A stretch of 64,000 nt of DNA from Thermosipho japonicus (GTDB taxonomy: Bacteria > Thermotogota > Thermotogae > Thermotogales > Fervidobacteriaceae): positions 1 through 64,000 of the forward strand of contig NZ_JACHEX010000003.1 in the NCBI RefSeq assembly GCF_014201655.1, read 5' to 3'. Shown piece after piece: positions 5,329 to 15,976 of this stretch. The notes under the pieces were generated by a model. That model saw only the letters and a program-made list of their open reading frames with translations, was not told where the DNA came from and searched no databases. A program made the translations under genes and the position numbers. Within the stretch, counting starts at the first letter, position 1. Every line of letters starts with the position of its first letter.

Positions 5329-5355
5329 AAAAGGCGCGCTAGTTGCGCCTTTTTT
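5327..5355. terminator. Bidirectional intrinsic terminator between nrdJ and rbsK
   Basis: The stem AAGGCGC / GCGCCTT with loop GCTAGTT is flanked by an A-run on the left and a T-run on the right. It sits between two convergent genes and can end transcription from both. Confidence 0.9.
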
Positions 5356-6262
5356 ATATATTTAAAAAGTTTTCAACTTCTTTTCTTGAAGGAATAGAAT
5401 TTTGTGCACCTTTTTTAGTAACTGACAAAGCAGCTGCTGCCGAGGCAAACTCCAATGATTTTTTTATATCAAGATTTTCATGCAAAGCTACAGCAAATGC
5501 TCCGTTAAAAACATCTCCCGCTGCCGTTGTATCAACAGCCTTAACTTTAAAAGATGGAATTTCCATCCTTTTATCTCCTTCAAAATAAATTACTCCTTTG
5601 CTTCCAAGTTTTACAATGAGTTTTTTTATTCCTAAACTTTTAAGCTTAAAATAACTATCTTCATATGAGACAAACTTTCCAAAGAATTTTTCCGTCAAAA
5701 ACTTTACTTCTTCTTCATTCGGTGTCAAAAAATCAACAAATTGAAAAATTTCCTTTTCAATTCCACTTATTGGAGCAGGGTCGAAAATAACAATTTTTCC
5801 ATTTTTACTAAAAAGTTGGGCAGCATATAAAGTTGACTCAAATGGGATTTCATTTTGAAGTAAAATGTAATCAGCTTCTAAAAGTTTTGCTTCATGCTTT
5901 TTTATAATTTCTTTAGTTAAGTTTCTATTTGCTCCAGGATATATTACAATTCTATTTTCACCTTTTCTTGTAACTTCAATAAAAGCTAAACCATTATTAT
6001 CATCAACTTCCAAATATCCTTCAATGTTTAATTTGTCGTATTGGTCTTTTAAAGCTCTTCCATAAGAGTCATTACCAATACAGGTTAAAAAATAAACATT
6101 AGAATTTTTCTTAGAAAGTTTTGCTATACTAACTGCTTGGTTAGAACCTTTTCCACCAGGAAAAAACTCTAATTTTTGAGCCTTTTGAGTTTCACCAGGT
6201 AAAGTAAATCTCTCAACTGTTAAAACAACATCCATATTCGAACTTCCAACCACTGCAATCAT
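5354..6262 (-). CDS. rbsK: Ribokinase (PfkB family)
   Basis: Phosphorylates D-ribose with ATP to ribose-5-phosphate in the cytoplasm. The protein has 302 residues, typical for the family. The N-terminal sugar-binding signature GGKGSNQAV (about 36-44) and the C-terminal signature DTTAAGD (about 244-250) are both present; D250 is the catalytic base. The canonical second motif usually reads DTTGAGD, so the Ala here is a mild variation. It stands alone without rbs transport genes. An envelope cluster with a predicted nuclease lies upstream on the same strand beyond two tRNAs, so salvage of ribose from nucleosides is one possible role (inference). Another PfkB sugar kinase is possible, but the N-terminus favours ribokinase. 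Confidence 0.88.
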   Translation of the reverse strand: MIAVVGSSNMDVVLTVERFTLPGETQKAQKLEFFPGGKGSNQAVSIAKLSKKNSNVYFLTCIGNDSYGRALKDQYDKLNIEGYLEVDDNNGLAFIEVTRKGENRIVIYPGANRNLTKEIIKKHEAKLLEADYILLQNEIPFESTLYAAQLFSKNGKIVIFDPAPISGIEKEIFQFVDFLTPNEEEVKFLTEKFFGKFVSYEDSYFKLKSLGIKKLIVKLGSKGVIYFEGDKRMEIPSFKVKAVDTTAAGDVFNGAFAVALHENLDIKKSLEFASAAAALSVTKKGAQNSIPSRKEVENFLNI

Positions 6263-6353: not shown

Positions 6354-6430
6354 TGGCGTGCCCGGGGAGATTCGAACTCCCAACCTTCAGATCCGCAGTC
6401 TGACGCTCTATCCAATTGAGCTACGGGCAC
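6354..6430 (-). tRNA. tRNA-Arg (GCG)
   Basis: Full cloverleaf: acceptor GTGCCCG / CGGGCAC, encoded CCA, T-arm TTCGAAT. The anticodon stem TCAGA/TCTGA encloses loop CTGCGGA, giving anticodon GCG, which reads CGC and CGT. Most bacteria use ACG (edited to ICG) for this box. Confidence 0.9.
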
Positions 6431-6444
6431 ATACTATTTAATTT

Positions 6445-6467
6445 AAAAAAGGGGGAACTATCCCCCA
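6445..6467 (-). terminator. Hairpin between tRNA-Ser and tRNA-Arg
   Basis: A GGGGG / CCCCC stem is followed on the minus strand by six T, just downstream of tRNA-Ser. It probably causes partial termination or processing between the two tRNAs. Confidence 0.7.
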
Positions 6468-6472
6468 CTTTT

Positions 6473-6562
<90 letters not shown>

Positions 6563-6661: not shown

Positions 6662-8560
6662 TTAAAACGAAATATTTCCAAAAAGATCAAAATAATATCC
6701 TGAAAAATCGCTTCTTATTTTAAATCCTACATTGTAATCTTCTTTATATATGCCGTATCCTAAATACCATTTATCCAATAATGTTGTATGATTATATCCT
6801 GCTAACAAACCATATTTATCAAAGATATAAATTATTGAATCAACATTGTAACTTCCATTTTCAATATTATAGCTTGAGGTTAAATCCAAATAATTCATAC
6901 TCAACAAAAATTCTACTCTACCTTTGGCATATTTAAGCTCTGTTTCAAAGCCTTCTAAATTTATACTGGCTATTGCTGCAAAGCTGTTTGAATTTATGAA
7001 ATAGCCTCCATACAATTTTGTATAATAATCAAATAATTTCAAATTGTAACCTACAATAACTACACTTTCATCTACAAAATAATTATCACTATAGTTTACT
7101 TCAATGCCTACAACATTCAACCCTACAATCCATGACAACTGGTTACTATCTGCTCCAAAGCCTAAATAATATTTTTCATCATAACTTACAAAAATCCCAG
7201 TCTTTAATCCCTCAATTGGAAAATCTAATGCATAATTGTAATGCGCTAAAAATTCAAGCTTTTCATTAACAAGTTCCAACTTGGCATAATTAATACTTGC
7301 CCCATCATATTTCAAAGAAAATTCCAAATTATCATTCGGTCGGTATATAAGCTCTAAACTATTACTAAATCCTTGACCTTTTAGTAGATTTTTTTCGTCA
7401 TATTTGTAAGATAGATTAAAGCTATAGCTACCGCTTATACCAACTGAAGATTTAGTTTCTTGCTCCGGCTTTTCAATAACCAAAGTTCCATCTTTTTCAA
7501 CAATTTCAAAAACGCCATTTTTACCGCCATAACCATCTGGGACATAACCTGGTGCATTAGGATCTTCCTGCCAAGTTTGGTTATTATTTATCTCAAATAC
7601 ATATTTATACTCATACTTTCCAGGAGAAAGTACAAGAGAAACTTGCCAATATCCATCTACATTTTGCATTTCAATATCCTGTGGATTCCAGTTATTAAAT
7701 GAACCCGCAAGATATGCTTTAGAAGCTTGTGGCTTTTCAACTTTAAAATATACTTTTCCATCAATTATACTTACACCTAGTGGCACTTCTTTTTTCTCAA
7801 CTTTTTCAACTGTATTTTCAACTGGACTTCCCACTTTAAGCTGACCATTTTCTTCATATACCTTCAAAACAGAATTTTTGCCACCAAAGCCATCAGGTAA
7901 ATATGCAAAAGCGTTAGGATCCTCAACCCAAGTATCACCATTTACAACAAACTTATATTGATACACACCATTATCAAGTTCCAAAGCTGCTTCCCACCAG
8001 CCATCTCCAATATCATACATTTCAATGTCATCTGCATCCCAATTGTTAAAATCTCCTGCTATCATAACATATTCTGCATCTGGATTATAGTACCTTATAA
8101 CAACATACCCTTCTTCATCAACAAATATGGTATCCTCTCTTGATGTATTAACTTCATATTCTTTGCTTTCGTTTCCAGTATTACTATTATTTTCAGTACC
8201 ACCAACCGGCTTTATAACTAATTTTCCATTTTCATTCACAAGAAGAAAAGCTCCATTCTTTCCACCAAAGCCGTCATCTACATATGAGGGGGCATCTGGG
8301 TCTTCAATCCACCTAGAACCATCAACAACAAATTTGTATTGGTATTCACCTGGTAAAAGTTCTAAAGAAATTTTCCAGACGCCATTTTCATTTACCATAG
8401 GATTTGCACTAACAGACCAATTATTGAAATTTCCTGCAAGATATACCTGTTGTGCTTCAACTTCAAATGTAAATACCACCATTCCATTTTCAACGTAAAT
8501 AGAAGCAAATAAAAAGCTAAATAGAAAGGTTATAAGAAATAAAGATAATTTTTTCACCAT
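6662..8560 (-). CDS. Secreted protein: three AMPK/CBM48-like glycogen-binding modules plus beta-barrel-like C-terminus
   Basis: 632 residues. An N-terminal signal peptide (MVKKLSLFLITFLFSFLFA) is followed by three repeats of an E-set glycogen-binding module at about 22-115, 145-235 and 258-350. Each repeat has the pattern AGxFNNW, GxYxYKF/YV, W.EDP.A.. and DGFGGKN, as in AMPK-beta and CBM48 domains. From about residue 372 the sequence becomes alternating beta-strands rich in Tyr and ends in Phe (FGNISF). That fits a membrane beta-barrel or anchor in the outer toga (inference). It is last in a three-gene run with the 8576-9751 and 9765-10445 genes (gaps of 13-15 bp). The likely role is binding alpha-glucan at the surface. 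No catalytic domain is visible. Confidence 0.72.
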   Translation of the reverse strand: MVKKLSLFLITFLFSFLFASIYVENGMVVFTFEVEAQQVYLAGNFNNWSVSANPMVNENGVWKISLELLPGEYQYKFVVDGSRWIEDPDAPSYVDDGFGGKNGAFLLVNENGKLVIKPVGGTENNSNTGNESKEYEVNTSREDTIFVDEEGYVVIRYYNPDAEYVMIAGDFNNWDADDIEMYDIGDGWWEAALELDNGVYQYKFVVNGDTWVEDPNAFAYLPDGFGGKNSVLKVYEENGQLKVGSPVENTVEKVEKKEVPLGVSIIDGKVYFKVEKPQASKAYLAGSFNNWNPQDIEMQNVDGYWQVSLVLSPGKYEYKYVFEINNNQTWQEDPNAPGYVPDGYGGKNGVFEIVEKDGTLVIEKPEQETKSSVGISGSYSFNLSYKYDEKNLLKGQGFSNSLELIYRPNDNLEFSLKYDGASINYAKLELVNEKLEFLAHYNYALDFPIEGLKTGIFVSYDEKYYLGFGADSNQLSWIVGLNVVGIEVNYSDNYFVDESVVIVGYNLKLFDYYTKLYGGYFINSNSFAAIASINLEGFETELKYAKGRVEFLLSMNYLDLTSSYNIENGSYNVDSIIYIFDKYGLLAGYNHTTLLDKWYLGYGIYKEDYNVGFKIRSDFSGYYFDLFGNISF

Positions 8561-8575
8561 TTTAAAACACCTCCA

Positions 8576-9751
8576 TTACCACCAGGTATTAAATTCAACT
8601 GAGACTATCTTTTTAAACGTATTTACATTGTAAAAATCTCCATTTCCAACCATTATCTTAAGCTCTCCATTTGAAAAAGCATTAGACTTTAATTCAAAAT
8701 ATGCAGTAGCACGTTTTTCATAAACACCATTTATTCTTTGAATTTTTCCAAACAAGTTAAACATACCAATTCTTTTTGACAACTCTAGATAATATACTTC
8801 TCCTAGTGTTCCAACAGTATTATGCGCAGGCTTTCCAAATGAATAAGATAACTTACCATTTATATCAAAAAGATTGAATGGTACATTAACTGAAACATTA
8901 AAATCTCCCCATTTATCTGGCGTTAGTCCAAATTCATCAAATCCATCCTTTGAAAAGGATATAGAAAATGCTGAAAAATCATAGCTTAACCCCGCATTAC
9001 TATATTTAAGAAAGTTATCTCCATTTTTATCACTTTTTAAATTTGTCCAAATAGTACCTTTTTGCATGTTATACCAAATATTAACAACATATCTGTTTTC
9101 AAGGCTTATGTTAGTATAATCCGCAAGTAAAACATTAGAGCCTGAAAATGTTATTTTAACACCCCATTTCCAATCTTTCTCAGATAAACCAACTTGTAAA
9201 ATGCTTTTTTCAAAAGAATAGTCACTATAATCTGTATACACCGCTTCAAATAAATAATTTAAGCCTTTTTGAAGTGTAAATTCTAACATATAATCTTTAA
9301 CATTATCTCTTAAACTGTATAAAAGCTTAAAGTTATTTGATGCATATTTAAAATAATTTAGTTTCAAACTGTTAAAAGAGTAAAAATAAAAATTTGAGTA
9401 ACTTGCAACAAATCCATCTGAGCCCATGTCAAACTTGTATAATCCCAACAAATCATCAGTTTCTCCAAATACCCTATTTTTATAAACATTTATCCCAAAG
9501 TTATCTTTGTAAAAATTAACTTCTGCTGAATCCAGCCTATCGTCTTTTAAAGAAAAGGTTGCCGAAAAATCACTTCCCAACCCCGAAAGATTTGTCCAAA
9601 ATTCTGTGTAGGTATTATAACTTGGTAAAAATGTTGGAAAGTCATTAGTAAAGTCTGCCACAAATGTAAACTTAAATGAATATGAAGGAGAAACACTGGC
9701 AAAATATATACAAGTTATTAAAATAGAAAATACTATAAATATTTTCTTCAC
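8576..9751 (-). CDS. Predicted outer-envelope beta-barrel protein
   Basis: 391 residues, starting with GTG behind a GAGGTG ribosome-binding site. A signal peptide (about 1-20) is followed by a sequence made almost entirely of amphipathic beta-strands rich in Tyr, Phe, Asn and Ser. It has no cysteine clusters or known catalytic motif and ends in aromatic residues (FNTWW). This resembles porin-like or sheath barrel proteins, which diverge too quickly to name by eye. It lies 13 bp after a lipoprotein gene and 15 bp before the glycogen-binding barrel gene, so the three are probably co-transcribed and assembled together. The function is not recognised beyond location. Confidence 0.6.
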   Translation of the reverse strand: MKKIFIVFSILITCIYFASVSPSYSFKFTFVADFTNDFPTFLPSYNTYTEFWTNLSGLGSDFSATFSLKDDRLDSAEVNFYKDNFGINVYKNRVFGETDDLLGLYKFDMGSDGFVASYSNFYFYSFNSLKLNYFKYASNNFKLLYSLRDNVKDYMLEFTLQKGLNYLFEAVYTDYSDYSFEKSILQVGLSEKDWKWGVKITFSGSNVLLADYTNISLENRYVVNIWYNMQKGTIWTNLKSDKNGDNFLKYSNAGLSYDFSAFSISFSKDGFDEFGLTPDKWGDFNVSVNVPFNLFDINGKLSYSFGKPAHNTVGTLGEVYYLELSKRIGMFNLFGKIQRINGVYEKRATAYFELKSNAFSNGELKIMVGNGDFYNVNTFKKIVSVEFNTWW

Positions 9752-9764
9752 TTTATCACCTCAC

Positions 9765-10445
9765 TTATTTAACAAATGCCTTTAAAATACTTAACTGTGG
9801 GTAGTATTCAACAACAATTGAACTTCCATCTTTATCAGCAACAAAGTATCCATCTTGTCCCATACCTGCGTTGTAATTTTTACCATCAAATTGTTCTTCC
9901 CAAGGCTTCCAATCAGAGTTTCTCGCTATCTTAAAATAAAAACCTTCTCCTTTTGAAACTTCTCTTTCTATTTCATAAACATATTTATCATCAACTTTTG
10001 ACATCTTTGATAAAGTCCAACTGTTAAACTCACCTGCACAGTACCAATCTCCCATTTCTTTCTCACTATCACCTGCACCAACTGCATAACCATCGTGCAT
10101 TAAATTAGGAGAAGCATATATTGTAATTGAAGTAGCATCGCCTAGATTTTCTTGCCATACAGGAACTGAGGATTGAATTTTTGATTCTCCAGTCCCTACA
10201 TATATAACTTTATACCATCCAATATGCCCTGAACTTCCCTCAGTAAATGTTATTGAAGAAACAGGAAGTTCAAACATATAAAACCCATTGTTCAATTGCA
10301 TCTTATCTTTTTCAGTTGGCATCCAATTGTTCCAATCACCAGCAACATACATTCCTGAATCAAGTGATAAATTAAATAAAGTCATACATCCAAAAAATAT
10401 AAAAAATAAGACAAAAATTGAAGTGAACAAAAGATATTTTTTCAC
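9765..10445 (-). CDS. Lipoprotein with two AMPK/CBM48-like carbohydrate-binding modules
   Basis: About 226 residues. I place the start at GTG 10445, seven bases after GGAGGTG, because the longer frame begins with TTG inside that ribosome-binding site. The signal peptide ends in a lipobox (FIFFGC). Two E-set modules follow: one with MYVAGDWNNWMPTEKDKM and one with YCAGEFNSWTLSKM and a Trp-rich strand (SDWKPWEEQF). Both have the [A]G.[FW]N.W core shared with the modules of the 6662-8560 protein. It is probably an envelope-anchored alpha-glucan-binding protein. It is first in a run with two barrel-like proteins and could hand ligands to them (inference). Confidence 0.65.
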   Translation of the reverse strand: MKKYLLFTSIFVLFFIFFGCMTLFNLSLDSGMYVAGDWNNWMPTEKDKMQLNNGFYMFELPVSSITFTEGSSGHIGWYKVIYVGTGESKIQSSVPVWQENLGDATSITIYASPNLMHDGYAVGAGDSEKEMGDWYCAGEFNSWTLSKMSKVDDKYVYEIEREVSKGEGFYFKIARNSDWKPWEEQFDGKNYNAGMGQDGYFVADKDGSSIVVEYYPQLSILKAFVK

Positions 10446-10472
10446 ACTTTTCACCTCCAAAGCCCAATAACA

Positions 10473-10492
10473 ATGGGGGCATATGCCCCCAT
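10473..10492 (-). terminator. Hairpin after the 10519-12429 lipoprotein gene
   Basis: A perfect palindrome ATGGGGGCAT / ATGCCCCCAT lies in the 73-bp gap. Only a weak T-rich tail (ATTGTTATT) follows on the minus strand, so it may be an attenuator or mRNA-stabilising stem rather than a full terminator. Confidence 0.5.
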
Positions 10493-10518
10493 CAAATATT
10501 CATTCAATAATAACTAGC

Positions 10519-12429
10519 TTATTTTACATCATAAGTTAAAAATCCATCAATTGTAATTGGCGTGTCCCATTGCCATCCATCTGGATAAACTATGTCAGGC
10601 ATTGTATCTGGTGCAGATGAACCATCACCACCTACAACAAAGGCAGCAATTTTTATTTGTGTTGGTTTTCCAGAAGCAAATCCCAAATCACTCCATGGAA
10701 TCTTTACCTCAGTTACTGAACCAACAGTCTTACCTTCATGTGTCTTTTCTGTACAAGTATTACCTTCTACTGTATAGAAATGCCTATTCCCGTCATCATT
10801 ATTCCAAGAAGCAACAAATGCGTCATTTTCAAATCCTTGAAGTGTAATCTTTCTTGCCCATGCGCTCATTTGTGAAAGATCTGTTGCTCCTTGCGTATCA
10901 TTTCCTAAATCCATAACTAAGAGCCATCCATTGCCTGATACAGATACATCAATTCCTAAATAAAGATAAGAATCATTGTTCCAAACTTTAATTTGTTTTA
11001 GCTCATTATCAGCACCCCACTGTGAATCGTTCGTTGCATCATTAAATACTGCAGAATCAGCTGGAAAATCGGACAAATCACCATTTAAAGGAATATCAAT
11101 TCCTTCAGTAATATCATCTACACTTCTTGGAACAACTTTATACCTATCGTAATTCCACATTATTACACCTTTAACAGTATATTCTACACCAGTTTTCCAG
11201 TCATATCCAACATAATCTTTTACAGTAATTTCTGTACCATCACTTAAGAAAGTAACATTATCATACGTATCCGTAGATTCTACAGTACCAGTGAATACCA
11301 CAAGCTTTCCATACAATGGAGATGCATCATCAATAAATGTTCCGGTTATATCCATTGGTGCTGGATCAGGATTTCCTGTGCTAATAAGTTCTGAAGCATC
11401 TGGAACTATTTCAAAATCATGACCATAAACTGATGCTTCTCCTGAAACTAAGACTAGATCCCCAAGACTAAAGACATCACCAATGCCAGATTTATATACC
11501 TTTATTGCATCAGTATCATCTTGTATAAAAGCATAATCTTTCCATGGTTGACTTGAATTGTGGTATGTATAAGTCACAACACCACGAACCGTTGTTGTAA
11601 ATGTTGCACTGTCATCAGCAAGCAATCTTTCTTTGACATTTGCTATTGTTTCAATAGTTGTACTCTTTAATGGTTCAAAACTTACTTTACTGTGATGTGC
11701 ATCAAAAATTACTTTAAATTCCTTTACATTTTCATCAAAATTAAATGTTCCATTATCACCCGTTGCATAATAATTTTTTCCATTAAATGCTAATACCTTT
11801 AATGTATCAGTAATATCCCAATTATCTCCTGACCAAATTTTGTATTCAATATTTTTTACATAATCACTTGCTGTAACCGTTGCTTCAAAAACTCCATTGC
11901 CCATATTTTCCATCTTCATATGCGACCAGTCTGTCACTGTTCCGACAAAATAATAATCACGCTTATCTTTTAAATTATCCCCAAAACCAATAATTGTATT
12001 GGTTGAATCTGGAATAGTTGCATAAAATTCCACTTTGTCTGTATCTAAAAGAGCATCAAAATCTTCTTTTAAAAATGGCACAGAAGGATCATAAGGTCCT
12101 GTACCACCATATACGATCCAAGTTTTAGTTGCTTGAGGATCAACTACCTTTACAACAGTCCACCAATACACTCCATCTTTATCTTTTCCTTCTAAAACAT
12201 TTGAAAGATCAGATTTTGCAATAGAAAGCTTATATTCATTTTCTGCCACTTCACTCATCTTTAAACCCGGTAGAACTGTTATATCTTCTGCTCCATCAGA
12301 AGCCTTATATTGAAAATTAAATGCAACGTAATATCCTGGCTCTAATTCAGCACTTTTAGGTGCTAAAAAACATCCAAATAGTAAGAATAATAATAAAACA
12401 ACTGACGACAACAATAGAAACTTTTTCAT
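10519..12429 (-). CDS. Large envelope lipoprotein with E-set-like, OB-fold and CBM9-like regions
   Basis: About 636 residues. ATG 12429 is preferred over an upstream in-frame ATG because a GGGGAGGGA ribosome-binding site lies six bases before it and the signal peptide begins there. The lipobox is LLFGC. Residues about 20-260 hold beta-rich regions with a starch-binding-like pattern (YYFVGTVTDWSHMKMENMG). Residues about 265-440 hold two OB-fold-like units (VRGVVTYTY...AFIQDDTDAIKVY...LVSGEASVYG and KLVVFTGTVE...YTVKGVIMW). The last 190 residues resemble a CBM9/DOMON-like sandwich (WNNDSYLYLGIDV, WSDLGF). The OB unit is shared with the 13453 and 15112 products. The likely role is surface ligand binding; no enzyme motif is seen. 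Confidence 0.6.
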   Translation of the reverse strand: MKKFLLLSSVVLLLFLLFGCFLAPKSAELEPGYYVAFNFQYKASDGAEDITVLPGLKMSEVAENEYKLSIAKSDLSNVLEGKDKDGVYWWTVVKVVDPQATKTWIVYGGTGPYDPSVPFLKEDFDALLDTDKVEFYATIPDSTNTIIGFGDNLKDKRDYYFVGTVTDWSHMKMENMGNGVFEATVTASDYVKNIEYKIWSGDNWDITDTLKVLAFNGKNYYATGDNGTFNFDENVKEFKVIFDAHHSKVSFEPLKSTTIETIANVKERLLADDSATFTTTVRGVVTYTYHNSSQPWKDYAFIQDDTDAIKVYKSGIGDVFSLGDLVLVSGEASVYGHDFEIVPDASELISTGNPDPAPMDITGTFIDDASPLYGKLVVFTGTVESTDTYDNVTFLSDGTEITVKDYVGYDWKTGVEYTVKGVIMWNYDRYKVVPRSVDDITEGIDIPLNGDLSDFPADSAVFNDATNDSQWGADNELKQIKVWNNDSYLYLGIDVSVSGNGWLLVMDLGNDTQGATDLSQMSAWARKITLQGFENDAFVASWNNDDGNRHFYTVEGNTCTEKTHEGKTVGSVTEVKIPWSDLGFASGKPTQIKIAAFVVGGDGSSAPDTMPDIVYPDGWQWDTPITIDGFLTYDVK

Positions 12430-12487
12430 CTTACATCCCTCCCCAAAATTACAATTTCGCAATTTCATATTATATTACTATGCCTAT

Positions 12488-12536
12488 ATAAAAAAAAACA
12501 AACCTTGGAACGAGTTCCAAAATCGTTCCAAGGTTG
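12488..12536 (-). terminator. Strong terminator after the thermonuclease gene
   Basis: The stem CCTTGGAACGA / TCGTTCCAAGG is perfect and is followed on the minus strand by TTTG and nine T. It separates the 12563 gene from the 10519 gene. Confidence 0.9.
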
Positions 12537-12562
12537 ATTTACAAAATTTTACCTACATTTGT

Positions 12563-13396
12563 TTAATTTAACACAACTATTTCATTCGGGCTTCTAAGCA
12601 ATATTTCTGGTTTATTATCATCAAACCAAAGTTCTCCATAGAATCTTACTTTTTTACCTTTAATGGAATATAAGTTATAATCTTTGAAAAAATATTCATA
12701 TTCACCATCGCGAATGGAAATTTCAAACCAATCACAATCAATATAGTAGTGATATCCACCATTACTATGGTAATTTTTTCTTATATCTTTCACTGTTCCT
12801 TCTAGAAAAACGATCTTACCTTCAAGTGAGCTTGTTATTTGAGCCTTACTACTTAAAATCTTTGCTGAATTCCATTTTGAAAATATTCCTTTTTTATTTT
12901 CAAAGGCATAGTTATAAGCTTGAACAAGCCTTGGAGTTAATTCACTATCATCATTATCAAAATATATTAAAGGTCTTGCATATCCTTCCATTAAAACTGA
13001 CTCTTCATAGAATATATAACCATTTTCACTATTTTTTCCAAAAACATAAGCTAGAGTTCTACCATATCCATCATTTCCTACAACCTTTAAATATATCTCG
13101 TATTTGCTGACAAAATCTTCTAAAAACCTTTTTGCATCCTCTCCGTACTCACCAACTGGTTTACTACCTGCATGAGTTTCTGGAGTATCAATTCCAACAA
13201 TTCTCACTTTTTTGTACTCTCCATTTACATATCCATAGAAAGTATCGCCATCAACAATGTGAACCACATCTAACTTTACAAATCCACTATCATCTTTAAT
13301 GGGACTTAAAAAGTCTATAGCATCAATATCTATACAAGAAAACAACGTAATTAAGACACTAAATAACAAAATTGGCAAAAGCTTTTTCAAATCCAT
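12563..13396 (-). CDS. Lipoprotein thermonuclease (SNase family) with C-terminal OB-fold
   Basis: 277 residues. The signal peptide ends in a lipobox (LITLFSC, Cys 21), so the mature protein should be anchored in the envelope. Residues about 38-185 are a staphylococcal-nuclease domain. The motif VVHIVDGDT holds metal-binding Asp, VRIVGIDTPET gives R65 and E73, and YGRTLAYV gives R113. These correspond to the catalytic Arg35, Glu43 and Arg87 of the S. aureus enzyme. Residues about 190-275 form an OB-fold-like unit (VFLEGTVKDIRKN...KKVRFYGELWF) like those in its neighbours. It probably cleaves DNA and RNA outside the cell or in the periplasm, with calcium. OB plus SNase is the pairing found in the Bacillus nuclease YhcR. 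Confidence 0.87.
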   Translation of the reverse strand: MDLKKLLPILLFSVLITLFSCIDIDAIDFLSPIKDDSGFVKLDVVHIVDGDTFYGYVNGEYKKVRIVGIDTPETHAGSKPVGEYGEDAKRFLEDFVSKYEIYLKVVGNDGYGRTLAYVFGKNSENGYIFYEESVLMEGYARPLIYFDNDDSELTPRLVQAYNYAFENKKGIFSKWNSAKILSSKAQITSSLEGKIVFLEGTVKDIRKNYHSNGGYHYYIDCDWFEISIRDGEYEYFFKDYNLYSIKGKKVRFYGELWFDDNKPEILLRSPNEIVVLN

Positions 13397-13427
13397 ACTG
13401 CTCCCTTCTTCTTTTACTTTTTAAAAT

Positions 13428-13447
13428 GTGCCACCTAAAGGTGGCAC
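13428..13447 (-). terminator. Hairpin after the 13453-15045 gene
   Basis: A perfect stem GTGCCACC / GGTGGCAC with a four-base loop is followed on the minus strand by ATTTT. It lies between two co-directional envelope genes. Confidence 0.65.
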
Positions 13448-13452
13448 AATTA

Positions 13453-15045
13453 TTATTTTAAAATCTCTACATCAAATTGACCTCTAGGCAAAATTTCATA
13501 TTCACCTTTATACAAAGTAAGGATTCCTGTAACTTTAACCTTTGAACCTACCGACAAATTAGAAATATCTATATTTGTACCTTTCTTTAAATAAACTTTT
13601 ATTAGAAATTCCCCTGTATCCACTACAAAATCATATTTTCTTTTTTCTTTTACTACTCCTTCAACGTAAACTAAGCTTGACAAAAAGACATCTGAAAGGC
13701 TTGTTAAAACATCTGCTTTTGGCTTATCTTTTCCAACAACTTCTATTGAATCAGCAACAAGTTCTACTATTCCATTCCACAATTTACTTTTTCCAGTTAC
13801 TACAACAACGTCACCTGTTTCTAAGCTTTCTGTAAATGATGGTGCATAAATCATGAGTCCTGAAACTTCATCCTGAATGTAAAAGCTACCTTTTCCAAGT
13901 AAATCTTTTGGAGAAGTCACTATTCCTTTAACAGTATATATAGCTCCTTCCTGGCCAAAAGCAACATCCATCAAAGAAGAATAGGATGTTTTTTCACCAA
14001 TCTGTTTTTCAACTTTTTCGGCACTAATGTTTTCTTTTTTGCCAAAGGAAAAGTTTAAAAGATTTTCAAAATCAAGTGAGTAGAAATAATTTAACTCAAC
14101 AGCTATAAGCTGTTTTCCACCGAAGCTGTCTCCACTTAACAAATCTCCATTTCCAACCTTTAGAGTAAAGTCTTTATATGATAACTTAGCACCATATAAA
14201 GGTAGCATGTTTGATTCAACCCACACACTATTGTACCTTACAAATATTCCAAGAACATAATCATTAAGGTGATAATCTAAATCGGCATAAATTGCCCAAT
14301 CATTGCTATTAAGAAGTTTGTCTATAGGATCTCCCGTTTGAAAATCTACATCATATACATTTGCACCAATTTTTAAAAACTGAGTTGATAATTCAAAATT
14401 GTTATATTTTGCTCTTGCACCCACTAAATATGAAAATTCCATTAAATTATCAGTTTTTGCTGAAAGTGCTCCCCACATATCTAAAGAAATATTTCCAAAG
14501 TTAAATTCCTTATTCATATCCGCCGATAATTGATTGTACCTATTTTCATAATAAACTCCAAAGTCATAACCAAAAAGATCAATCTTTGAAAATGCAGCAA
14601 AGGTATTATTATCAAGGTTATAAGCACCACCTAAATTAAACACACCATATCTTGCAAATAGACCTAATCCATAATAATCAAATTTTAATCCTCCAACTCT
14701 TAATCCATCCAATTTTTCAGTTTGTGTGCTTTTTAAGCGGGCCTTTAAAGCATCAATCGTTAAATCAACTCCAAAAATGTTAAATTTTCCTTCAAGGTAG
14801 TAATACCTTGGCTTTGCTATAGAAAAATCCCCTATATTCCAAACATCATGTGAAAGTGCCAAATAGTCATTAACTTTAAATTTAAGAAAATCAAATGGTT
14901 TATAGGTTGCATATAATATTGGAAAATTATCAAAAGAGCCATCATTTAAACCAATTGTCATAAGATTTAAAACTGATAAGGAAAAATTCCCCGCAAATAC
15001 TATAAAAGAAAATAGTACCATCAATGTTATTAAAAACTTCTTCAT
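13453..15045 (-). CDS. Beta-barrel-like envelope protein with two C-terminal OB-folds
   Basis: About 530 residues. ATG 15045 is chosen because GGGAGGG lies six bases upstream and the signal peptide (MKKFLITLMVLFSFIVFAG) begins there. Residues about 20-345 are alternating beta-strands rich in Tyr, Asn and Phe (porin or sheath-like). Residues about 370-530 carry two OB-fold-like units. The first reads YTVKGIVTSP...SFYIQDEVSGLMIYA...GDVVVVTGKSKLWNG, and a second begins near VYVEGVVKEKRKY. The same YIQD..G..VY..GD.V.V.G pattern occurs in the 10519 and 15112 products, so these proteins share a ligand-binding module. Together with the SNase lipoprotein this suggests nucleic-acid handling at the surface (inference). 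Confidence 0.62.
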   Translation of the reverse strand: MKKFLITLMVLFSFIVFAGNFSLSVLNLMTIGLNDGSFDNFPILYATYKPFDFLKFKVNDYLALSHDVWNIGDFSIAKPRYYYLEGKFNIFGVDLTIDALKARLKSTQTEKLDGLRVGGLKFDYYGLGLFARYGVFNLGGAYNLDNNTFAAFSKIDLFGYDFGVYYENRYNQLSADMNKEFNFGNISLDMWGALSAKTDNLMEFSYLVGARAKYNNFELSTQFLKIGANVYDVDFQTGDPIDKLLNSNDWAIYADLDYHLNDYVLGIFVRYNSVWVESNMLPLYGAKLSYKDFTLKVGNGDLLSGDSFGGKQLIAVELNYFYSLDFENLLNFSFGKKENISAEKVEKQIGEKTSYSSLMDVAFGQEGAIYTVKGIVTSPKDLLGKGSFYIQDEVSGLMIYAPSFTESLETGDVVVVTGKSKLWNGIVELVADSIEVVGKDKPKADVLTSLSDVFLSSLVYVEGVVKEKRKYDFVVDTGEFLIKVYLKKGTNIDISNLSVGSKVKVTGILTLYKGEYEILPRGQFDVEILK

Positions 15046-15064
15046 ATTTTTCCCTCCCGATAAT

Positions 15065-15089
15065 AATAGGGCCATAGGATGGCCCTATT
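15065..15089 (-). terminator. Hairpin after the 15112 lipoprotein gene
   Basis: The stem AATAGGGCCA / TGGCCCTATT has a five-base loop. On the minus strand only ATTAT follows, so termination is likely to be partial, allowing read-through into the barrel gene. Confidence 0.55.
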
Positions 15090-15111
15090 TTATTTAACTC
15101 TTTACTAGTAA

Positions 15112-15834
15112 TTAAAATTCAATATCATCTAAGTCTCTTGGATACAATCTCCACTCTCCGTAATATGCTGCCAGATATCCCGTAATTGTTGCAGGTTTGT
15201 CTGTACATGTTGCAATTGCTGTATAAGTGTAAACTGTAACTGTTGCACTACCAGACTCTACCGGATATTCTAATTCAAACTTTTTCCCATCATTATCCAA
15301 CGATGTTAATGTACCTTTTGCAGTTACAAATCTGTAATTCCATAAAGCTAAAGAAGTTGCATCTGTTGTTTCGCCAGCATCATTAAACAACCAACCATTC
15401 TTTAATCCAACGTTTAATACCACTGGTTCAGGCATTACTTCTGTAGCAGTACTAACAACTGTTACATTCTTCATTCTTAAATTTCCATGATATGTATCTT
15501 TATACAAAGCACCTCTCACGGTCACTTTATCTCCAACGTTTAAATTTGCAGATGAAATATCTTTGATATATAATCCAGCTGTTGCATCAGCAATAATTCC
15601 ATATCCATATGTAGAACCAATATACTTATAAACTAACACACCTGTAACTGTTGCATCAGAGGTTTCATTAAACAAATAATCCAATTTTGAAGCTATAATT
15701 CCATCAAAACCTAAATTAGTCCCTCCTGAATTTTCATCTCCATCATTGTTATTAGGAAGCTGCTGAAGACATCCTGAAAATACTATAAATATCACAAGCA
15801 AACCTGCTAAAAGTAAAAATAATCTTTTTTTCAT
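15112..15834 (-). CDS. OB-fold lipoprotein, first gene of the envelope cluster
   Basis: About 240 residues. ATG 15834 follows GGAGGTG by six bases and begins the signal peptide; the in-frame ATG further upstream lacks a site. The lipobox is FIVFSGC, followed by an Asn/Asp/Gly-rich linker. The mature part is two OB-fold-like units: TVTGVLVYKY...GIIADATAGLYIKDI...GDKVTVRGALYKD, and a second beginning near RFVTAKGTLTSL and ending with WRLYPRDLDDI. The pattern matches the YhcR-type OB units of the two neighbouring proteins. No catalytic motif is present. It is probably a surface-anchored binding protein working with the thermonuclease lipoprotein (inference). Confidence 0.65.
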   Translation of the reverse strand: MKKRLFLLLAGLLVIFIVFSGCLQQLPNNNDGDENSGGTNLGFDGIIASKLDYLFNETSDATVTGVLVYKYIGSTYGYGIIADATAGLYIKDISSANLNVGDKVTVRGALYKDTYHGNLRMKNVTVVSTATEVMPEPVVLNVGLKNGWLFNDAGETTDATSLALWNYRFVTAKGTLTSLDNDGKKFELEYPVESGSATVTVYTYTAIATCTDKPATITGYLAAYYGEWRLYPRDLDDIEF

Positions 15835-15976
15835 ACCCCACACCTCCTGTTTTGTTTTTAGCATATAATTGTATCAAAAAGTTACCTAAAAAGAAAATTA
15901 AAAAAAAGGTTATCATCTTCCATCTAATTAATATACCCTCTTTTATTTAAGCAATATTCAAGTTTATTTAAGTTTT

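Follow-up and report, generated by a model that had tools for sequence, protein, structure and literature searches.

Gene organization of the locus

We analysed a cluster of seven genes of Thermosipho japonicus that lies in a stretch of 64,000 nucleotides (the window; G000:C3:1-64000) of the 1.92-Mb genome. The genes, lettered A to G in transcription order, are co-directional on the minus strand, from A at 15864 down to G at 6662 (gene coordinates checked):

15112..15864, minus strand: gene A, lipoprotein bearing two OB folds in tandem; the start is likely at 15834
13453..15075, minus strand: gene B, signal peptide, predicted porin-like beta-barrel and C-terminal OB pair
12563..13396, minus strand: gene C, SNase lipoprotein with a single OB at the C-terminus
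10519..12468, minus strand: gene D, lipoprotein with two CBM48-like modules, an OB pair and a conserved C-terminal domain
9765..10460, minus strand: gene E, lipoprotein with two CBM48-like modules
8576..9751, minus strand: gene F, predicted outer-membrane-type beta-barrel with about 24 strands and a C-terminal W-W
6662..8560, minus strand: gene G, three CBM48/AMPK modules and a barrel-like C-terminal region with an invariant terminal Phe

All seven products have an N-terminal signal sequence, and lipoboxes are present in A (FSGC), C (LFSC), D (LFGC) and E (FFGC), in agreement with the initial annotation of the window, which had described seven co-directional genes, all with signal peptides and four with lipoboxes. 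A location of these proteins in the toga is plausible. The intergenic gaps are 36 bases (A-B), 56 (B-C), 94 (C-D), 58 (D-E), 13 (E-F) and 15 (F-G). The protein B and its gene surroundings are nearest to those of Thermosipho genomes. We consider it likely that the cluster represents two separately transcribed surface feeding modules that are neighbours in the Thermosipho lineage: A-C (module 1), which would act on nucleic acid, and D-G (module 2), which would act on alpha-glucan. The features read directly are the domain content, the catalytic residues, the separate conservation of the two modules, a terminator hairpin between them, a shared palindrome, and the adjacency of amylase genes in relatives.

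OB folds and the SNase lipoprotein in module 1

The following domains were assigned in A, B and C:

15121..15666, minus strand: OB pair of A (hhalign and OB tree)
14065..14991, minus strand: predicted barrel domain of B (AlphaFold/Foldseek; stands alone in f8 and f10 relatives)
13468..13950, minus strand: OB pair of B (PF01336, 2.9e-10, above cut-off; hhalign)
12869..13261, minus strand: SNase domain of C (PF00565, 1.1e-15; PDB SNase match, 1.8e-8)
12566..12835, minus strand: single OB of C (hhalign to B_OB2, 99.0%, E 2.2e-18)

The OB-like units that had been proposed for the 250-, 540- and 649-residue frames (A, B and D) are borne out by profile comparison, in which the three OB pairs form one homologous family (hhalign 100%, E < 1e-47; A against B_OB, 100%, E 1.1e-51). 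The pair of B also passes the Pfam threshold (PF01336, 40.4 bits versus a cut-off of 27); A has a DUF5689 match of 1.1e-5, under the cut-off, and a PDB sequence search with the B profile returned weak RPA matches only (0.065). Since the further unit noticed at the end of the SNase lipoprotein is found by hhalign as well, the OB total of module 1 is five: two in A, two in B and one in C. The protein C belongs to the SNase family, judged by its fold and its catalytic Asp/Arg/Glu residues; the positions D49, D51, T52, R65, D70, E73 and R113 are conserved in at least 29 of the 31 aligned sequences. The domain assignments of A, B and C thus agree with the proposal that YhcR-like OB domains and an SNase are spread over lipoproteins and one barrel-like protein. 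Neither a 5'-nucleotidase nor an EEP domain was found in A-C by Pfam or profile comparison.

It should be noted that two of the 31 aligned SNase-like sequences are without the catalytic residues; these are perhaps the proteins of L044 (6213-8489) and L045 (6790-9069), OB+SNase-like lipoproteins of 758-759 aa that occupy the place of A. The SNase-like stretch of the L044 protein is not called by Pfam.

A nucleic-acid role of the OB/SNase half is supported by fusion proteins. For example, L193 (4400-6526) encodes a 708-aa one-chain relative of module 1 with the order SNase-OB-OB-DUF4350-like, and a search of other phyla with the B OB model found this OB pair on one chain with EEP, Endonuclease I or PLD domains. 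The homology to OB nucleases is drawn through these fusion proteins. In Shewanella, removal of the YhcR-like OB region of ExeM nearly abolishes nuclease activity (PMC6085458). Because of these fusions and the ExeM requirement, we read A, B and C as proteins that would hold nucleic acid while C cuts it. An OB pair with DUF4350 is also present elsewhere in the genome of the window (L055, 7380-8969).

CBM48/AMPK modules and the C-terminus of D

The following domains were assigned in D and G:

11644..12351, minus strand: two CBM48/AMPK-like modules of D (hhalign, D_N2 to G_cbm2 and D_N1 to E_all)
11110..11598, minus strand: OB pair of D (hhalign; in the tree, own clade with Petrotoga-like D)
10522..11103, minus strand: C-terminal domain of D (conserved; last 190 residues)
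7451..8503, minus strand: CBM48 modules 1-3 of G (Pfam PF16561, 1.6e-34; AMPK-beta PDB match, 2.6e-9)

There are seven CBM48/AMPK-type modules in all: three in G, two in E and two in D. Five of them had been recognized initially as AMPK/CBM48-like, and this count stands, with the three of G supported by Pfam and PDB matches and the two of E by profile comparison; the two at the N-terminus of D had been overlooked and were found by hhalign. In the first module of G, the binding tryptophans W48 and W84 are invariant in 20 sequences. The modules of E match at 97-99.9% (E2 to G_cbm3, 99.9%, 2e-33; E1 to G_cbm1, 98.0%), and those of D comparably (D_N2 to G_cbm2, 99.9%, 1e-32; D_N1 to E_all, 99.7%, 8.5e-26). 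The modules of D and E lie under the curated Pfam cut-off, with no CBM48 match for the E of the window, and their assignment is one of profile-profile similarity alone.

The C-terminal domain of D, for which a DOMON/CBM9 identity had been suggested, found no counterpart in Pfam or the PDB, not even when a profile of 16 members was used, and that identity is unsupported. In a tree of 46 OB pairs, in which some branches are long and the deep forks are weak, the pairs of A, B and D fall into separate groups, and the D of the window stands beside those of Thermosipho and Petrotoga-like genomes. The D of Fervidobacterium-like genomes is without OB. Taken together, these two observations indicate that the OB pair is a trait of its D lineage; an origin as a copy of the neighbouring A or B was rejected.

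Several observations concern relatives of these proteins. Between 9800 and 11500 of the window, a region that covers the later portion of D and the whole of E, the DNA is 82-89% identical to that of genome G084, versus about 70% in the neighbouring genes, which reads as a recent exchange or gene conversion. The genome of the window encodes a second CBM48 tandem protein of 258 aa (L054, 8676-9452; G000:C3:157687-158403) that is 55% identical to the N-terminus of G and has relatives bearing the tandem on frames of about 1190 aa. An E-like domain with 64% identity to the E of the window lies within a 2928-aa frame of a distant family (G021:C1:936327-936890), which suggests transfer.

Predicted beta-barrels in both modules

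The AlphaFold models of B (predicted local distance difference test, pLDDT, 78.6; predicted template modelling score, pTM, 0.53) and F (pLDDT 86.6, pTM 0.70) are nearly all beta with a signal helix. In Foldseek searches, B matches OprD/Occ porins and OmpM1 (E about 1e-8 to 1e-6), and F matches ushers and porins (E about 1e-6), both with modest template modelling (TM) scores; F has no Pfam match. The two models resemble outer-membrane barrels of a general kind, with no named family. For G, one further feature was assigned:

6665..7435, minus strand: barrel-like C-terminus of G (weak profile link to F, hhalign 90.0%, E 1.7e-6)

This part of G is probably a barrel too. The C-terminal aromatic beta-signal is consistent with such a fold in both proteins, G ending in the invariant F632 and F in W-W; the B barrel continues into the OB pair, and its barrel-only relatives have no uniform C-terminal signal. 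Of the barrel-like envelope proteins proposed initially, B and F are assigned by the likeness of their models to porins or ushers, and G by its hhalign link to F.

Separate conservation of the two modules in Thermotogota

Relatives of B-G were sought in 103 Thermotogota genomes and the 20-kb neighbourhoods were read; relatives of A come from the neighbourhoods only. Neighbourhood conservation across the phylum, which had been proposed as a check, is found for each module by itself. Module 1 (OB lipoprotein, barrel and SNase lipoprotein) occurs together in four families: f1, which comprises Thermosipho-like and Fervidobacterium-like genomes; f8 (L191, L192 and L194), where the barrel is without OB; f9 (L049 and L050); and f10 (L183, L184 and, more loosely, L182), where the SNase gene is oppositely oriented. 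Parts of it are present in f11, where L041 has the OB lipoprotein and B and the SNase is in the separate fusion of L193, and in f3, where the B and C relatives of G086 are on different contigs. The OB is thus fused to the barrel in some genomes and separate in others. Module 2 (D-E-F-G, in the same order) recurs in three families, f1, f3 and f10 (L166-L181).

We found module 1 in 21 genomes and module 2 in 33, with both in 10 and one alone in 11 and 23, respectively; co-occurrence is not significant (Fisher p 0.12, in a test that ignores relatedness and uses hand-chosen presence thresholds). No SNase whatsoever was found in 8 of the 12 module-2-bearing genomes checked. Adjacency of the two modules is confined to Thermosipho-like genomes (G000, G078, G081 and G084; in G083 they are split across contig ends), and in Fervidobacterium-like genomes with both they are far apart or on different contigs. 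In G082 (L036), A, B and C are intact and D, E and F are lost. The sister genome G079 (L046, 8946-10368; about 94-96% DNA identity) retains C intact but is missing A, the greater part of B and the whole of D-G. Its gap between C and the tRNA genes retains AACCTTGGAA, the left arm of the C-D hairpin of the window; thus, D-G has probably been deleted there.

The C-D boundary and a palindrome shared with malE

Two features lie between C and D:

12490..12540, minus strand: intrinsic terminator (13-bp stem, U-run)
12505..12520, no strand assigned: candidate operator palindrome TTGGAACGAGTTCCAA, located upstream of D and within the terminator hairpin

The hairpin has a folding energy of -19.9 kcal/mol (z -4.81), and none of 200 shuffles was as good. 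In L034, L035 and L038, genes for tRNA-Ser and tRNA-Arg lie between C and D-G. The window has tRNA-Arg and tRNA-Ser after G (6354-6562), versus between C and D in relatives (L034, 14634-14836), from which it follows that D-G has moved relative to these tRNA genes. A consensus promoter scan yielded 46 sites versus 50.8 expected, no better than chance, and was therefore of no use; in relatives, a TATAAT-like box is conserved ahead of A, which suggests a separate promoter for module 1.

The palindrome TTGGAACGAGTTCCAA has one exact copy in each of the genomes G000, G081, G083 and G084, where it lies upstream of D; the chance expectation is about 0.005 per genome. The sole other position-conserved near-copy is TTGGAAACTGTTCCAA, which G000, G078, G080, G081 and G084 have at the promoter of the gene for a binding protein of 390 aa; the motif is also matched in G079. 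This binding protein matches the T. maritima MalE1 structure (9.8e-158). Upstream of D, TTGGAACNNGTTCCAA is a candidate repressor site, as is the palindrome at malE. A wide palindrome regulon was rejected, as position conservation was seen at D and malE alone among the near-matches followed.

Amylase and other neighbours of module 2

An alpha-amylase gene adjoins D in L166, L167, L172, L178 and L181. In the Thermotoga-like L172, D-E-F-G is flanked by the genes of an AmyA-type lipoprotein and of PulA, with that of MalE next to it. The T. maritima amylase AmyA, TM1840, is toga-bound (PMC3387000), and we infer from the family, lipoprotein form and neighbours that the L172 amylase is the TM1840 gene. 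In the Thermosipho genome, an amylase (a lipoprotein of 951 aa) and a pullulanase of 852 aa with a signal sequence are encoded elsewhere.

Next to PulA in L172 is a gene for a 581-aa WD40-type beta-propeller protein with an N-terminal hydrophobic stretch (14092-15837). Genes for ribose uptake (rbsD, A, C, B, R and kinase) follow G in L034 (3826-8544), L035 (17370-19900, in part) and L179 (3740-8471), and the window retains the ribokinase alone of this set (5354-6262). A link to ribose use was considered and set aside, the neighbourhood in these three loci being the sole evidence.

Two proposed feeding modules and the alternatives

What follows on binding and cutting, on channels and outer location, on transcription as two units and on the fate of the products is inferred from the features above. 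In module 1, OB domains on A, B and C would keep DNA or RNA at the outer envelope for the SNase of C to cut, and the B barrel would pass short products into the periplasm, where nucleoside importers would take over; the role of B is suggested by the constant company of a barrel in module 1. In module 2, the CBM48 modules of D, E and G would bind starch or glycogen beside the secreted amylase and pullulanase; maltodextrin would enter through F (and the barrel of G), and MalE would take over. Module 2 would be co-controlled with malE through the common palindromic operator. Cultures of hot sediment fed with DNA yielded Kosmotoga genomes that encode an extracellular nuclease (EC 3.1.31.1) and nucleoside transporters, which makes a feeding role plausible for the phylum; the Thermosipho genomes of the same study came from lipid-fed cultures (PMC8630151).

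Four points weigh against two feeding modules of this kind: (i) no nucleoside transporter adjoins module 1, Bmp-type binding proteins being encoded elsewhere in the genome; (ii) D holds an OB pair, which gives the two modules overlapping sets of domains; (iii) A-C and D-G have stayed adjacent in two Thermosipho-like genera, a possible sign that they are used jointly; and (iv) the model of B is of middling quality (pTM 0.53), and its porin matches, with TM-scores of about 0.5, are generic for barrels, making the substrate channel the weakest step.

Module 1 might instead serve defence or surface housekeeping, clearing DNA stuck to the toga, limiting transformation or shaping biofilm. Surface nucleases have such roles generally (PMC6085458), and no importer is linked to module 1. 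However, the porin-like barrel within the trio suggests passage of products, and the Kosmotoga genomes from DNA-fed enrichments point to feeding (PMC8630151); we regard this alternative as unlikely.

The initial annotation had taken all seven proteins as one joint capture and degradation system for nucleic acid, alpha-glucan or both; acting on the two together, it could break down, for example, biofilm matrix or the debris of lysed cells. Consistent with this are the adjacency and common direction of the genes in the four Thermosipho-like genomes and the presence of OB pairs in both halves, D included. Conversely, the modules occur singly and apart, neither being a significant predictor of the other, and most module-2 genomes checked are without SNase; a terminator or tRNA genes stand between C and D, the malE-type palindrome is upstream of D only, and the OB pair of D groups with Petrotoga-like D rather than with A or B. 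Because of the separate conservation, the terminator or tRNA genes and the palindrome, the joint system was rejected as highly improbable.

Equally improbable is the view that the OB pairs bind oligosaccharides, with the SNase as a passenger and all seven genes devoted to polysaccharides. In its favour, OB folds can bind sugars, and in Thermosipho and Petrotoga-like genomes the pair is part of D, a protein of the glucan module; against it, the pair is repeatedly fused to nucleases of four folds, a like pair is required for ExeM nuclease activity (PMC6085458), and the catalytic residues of C are conserved.

If the reading as two feeding modules is true, a deep-branching thermophile phylum eats nucleic acid by means of a split surface nuclease and its own porin-like barrel, and module 1 would be a concrete gene set for finding DNA eaters in hot sediments. 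For Thermotoga and its relatives, whose toga amylase is already known but not the partners of that amylase, module 2 would supply the lipoproteins that bind starch and the likely channel for its products through the outer membrane. The two-way split also guards against misreading the cluster as one mixed DNA-and-glycogen machine.

Comparison with known systems

The component families are already known; our literature searches found no description of either module assembly as a gene set. YhcR of Bacillus subtilis and ExeM of Shewanella are like module 1 in that a tandem OB pair and a sugar-nonspecific nuclease act at the surface, and the nuclease of YhcR is SNase-like. In contrast to both, module 1 spreads OB and SNase over three envelope proteins, one of them a porin-like barrel; and whereas a single YhcR chain unites OB, nuclease and 5'-nucleotidase, C combines its SNase with just one OB. 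A membrane-linked SNase of Mycoplasma, MAG_5040, is encoded beside an ABC importer and was proposed to supply nucleic-acid precursors (PMC3585158). The partners in module 1 are, unlike those of the Mycoplasma SNases, an outer-membrane-type barrel and OB lipoproteins, with no linked ABC importer.

The Sus system of Bacteroidota combines surface lipoproteins with glucan-binding modules, an outer-membrane barrel and an amylase, and module 2 would work in a similar manner, with glucan-binding surface lipoproteins, an outer-membrane barrel and an amylase. However, module 2 uses CBM48/AMPK modules in place of SusD/E/F, and F and G are not recognisable as SusC; no SusC/TonB-dependent barrel or SusD was matched by Pfam in the seven proteins. 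Module 1 might by analogy be a "Sus for DNA", in which OB domains on the lipoproteins and on the barrel protein hold the polymer, the tethered SNase cuts it and oligonucleotides enter via the same barrel, a possibility that we advance tentatively. A further counterpart of module 2 is the maltose/amylase locus of Thermotoga, in which the relatives of D-E-F-G are set between the AmyA-type lipoprotein and PulA, beside MalE; Thermosipho differs in having, at the position of that amylase, module 1 instead.

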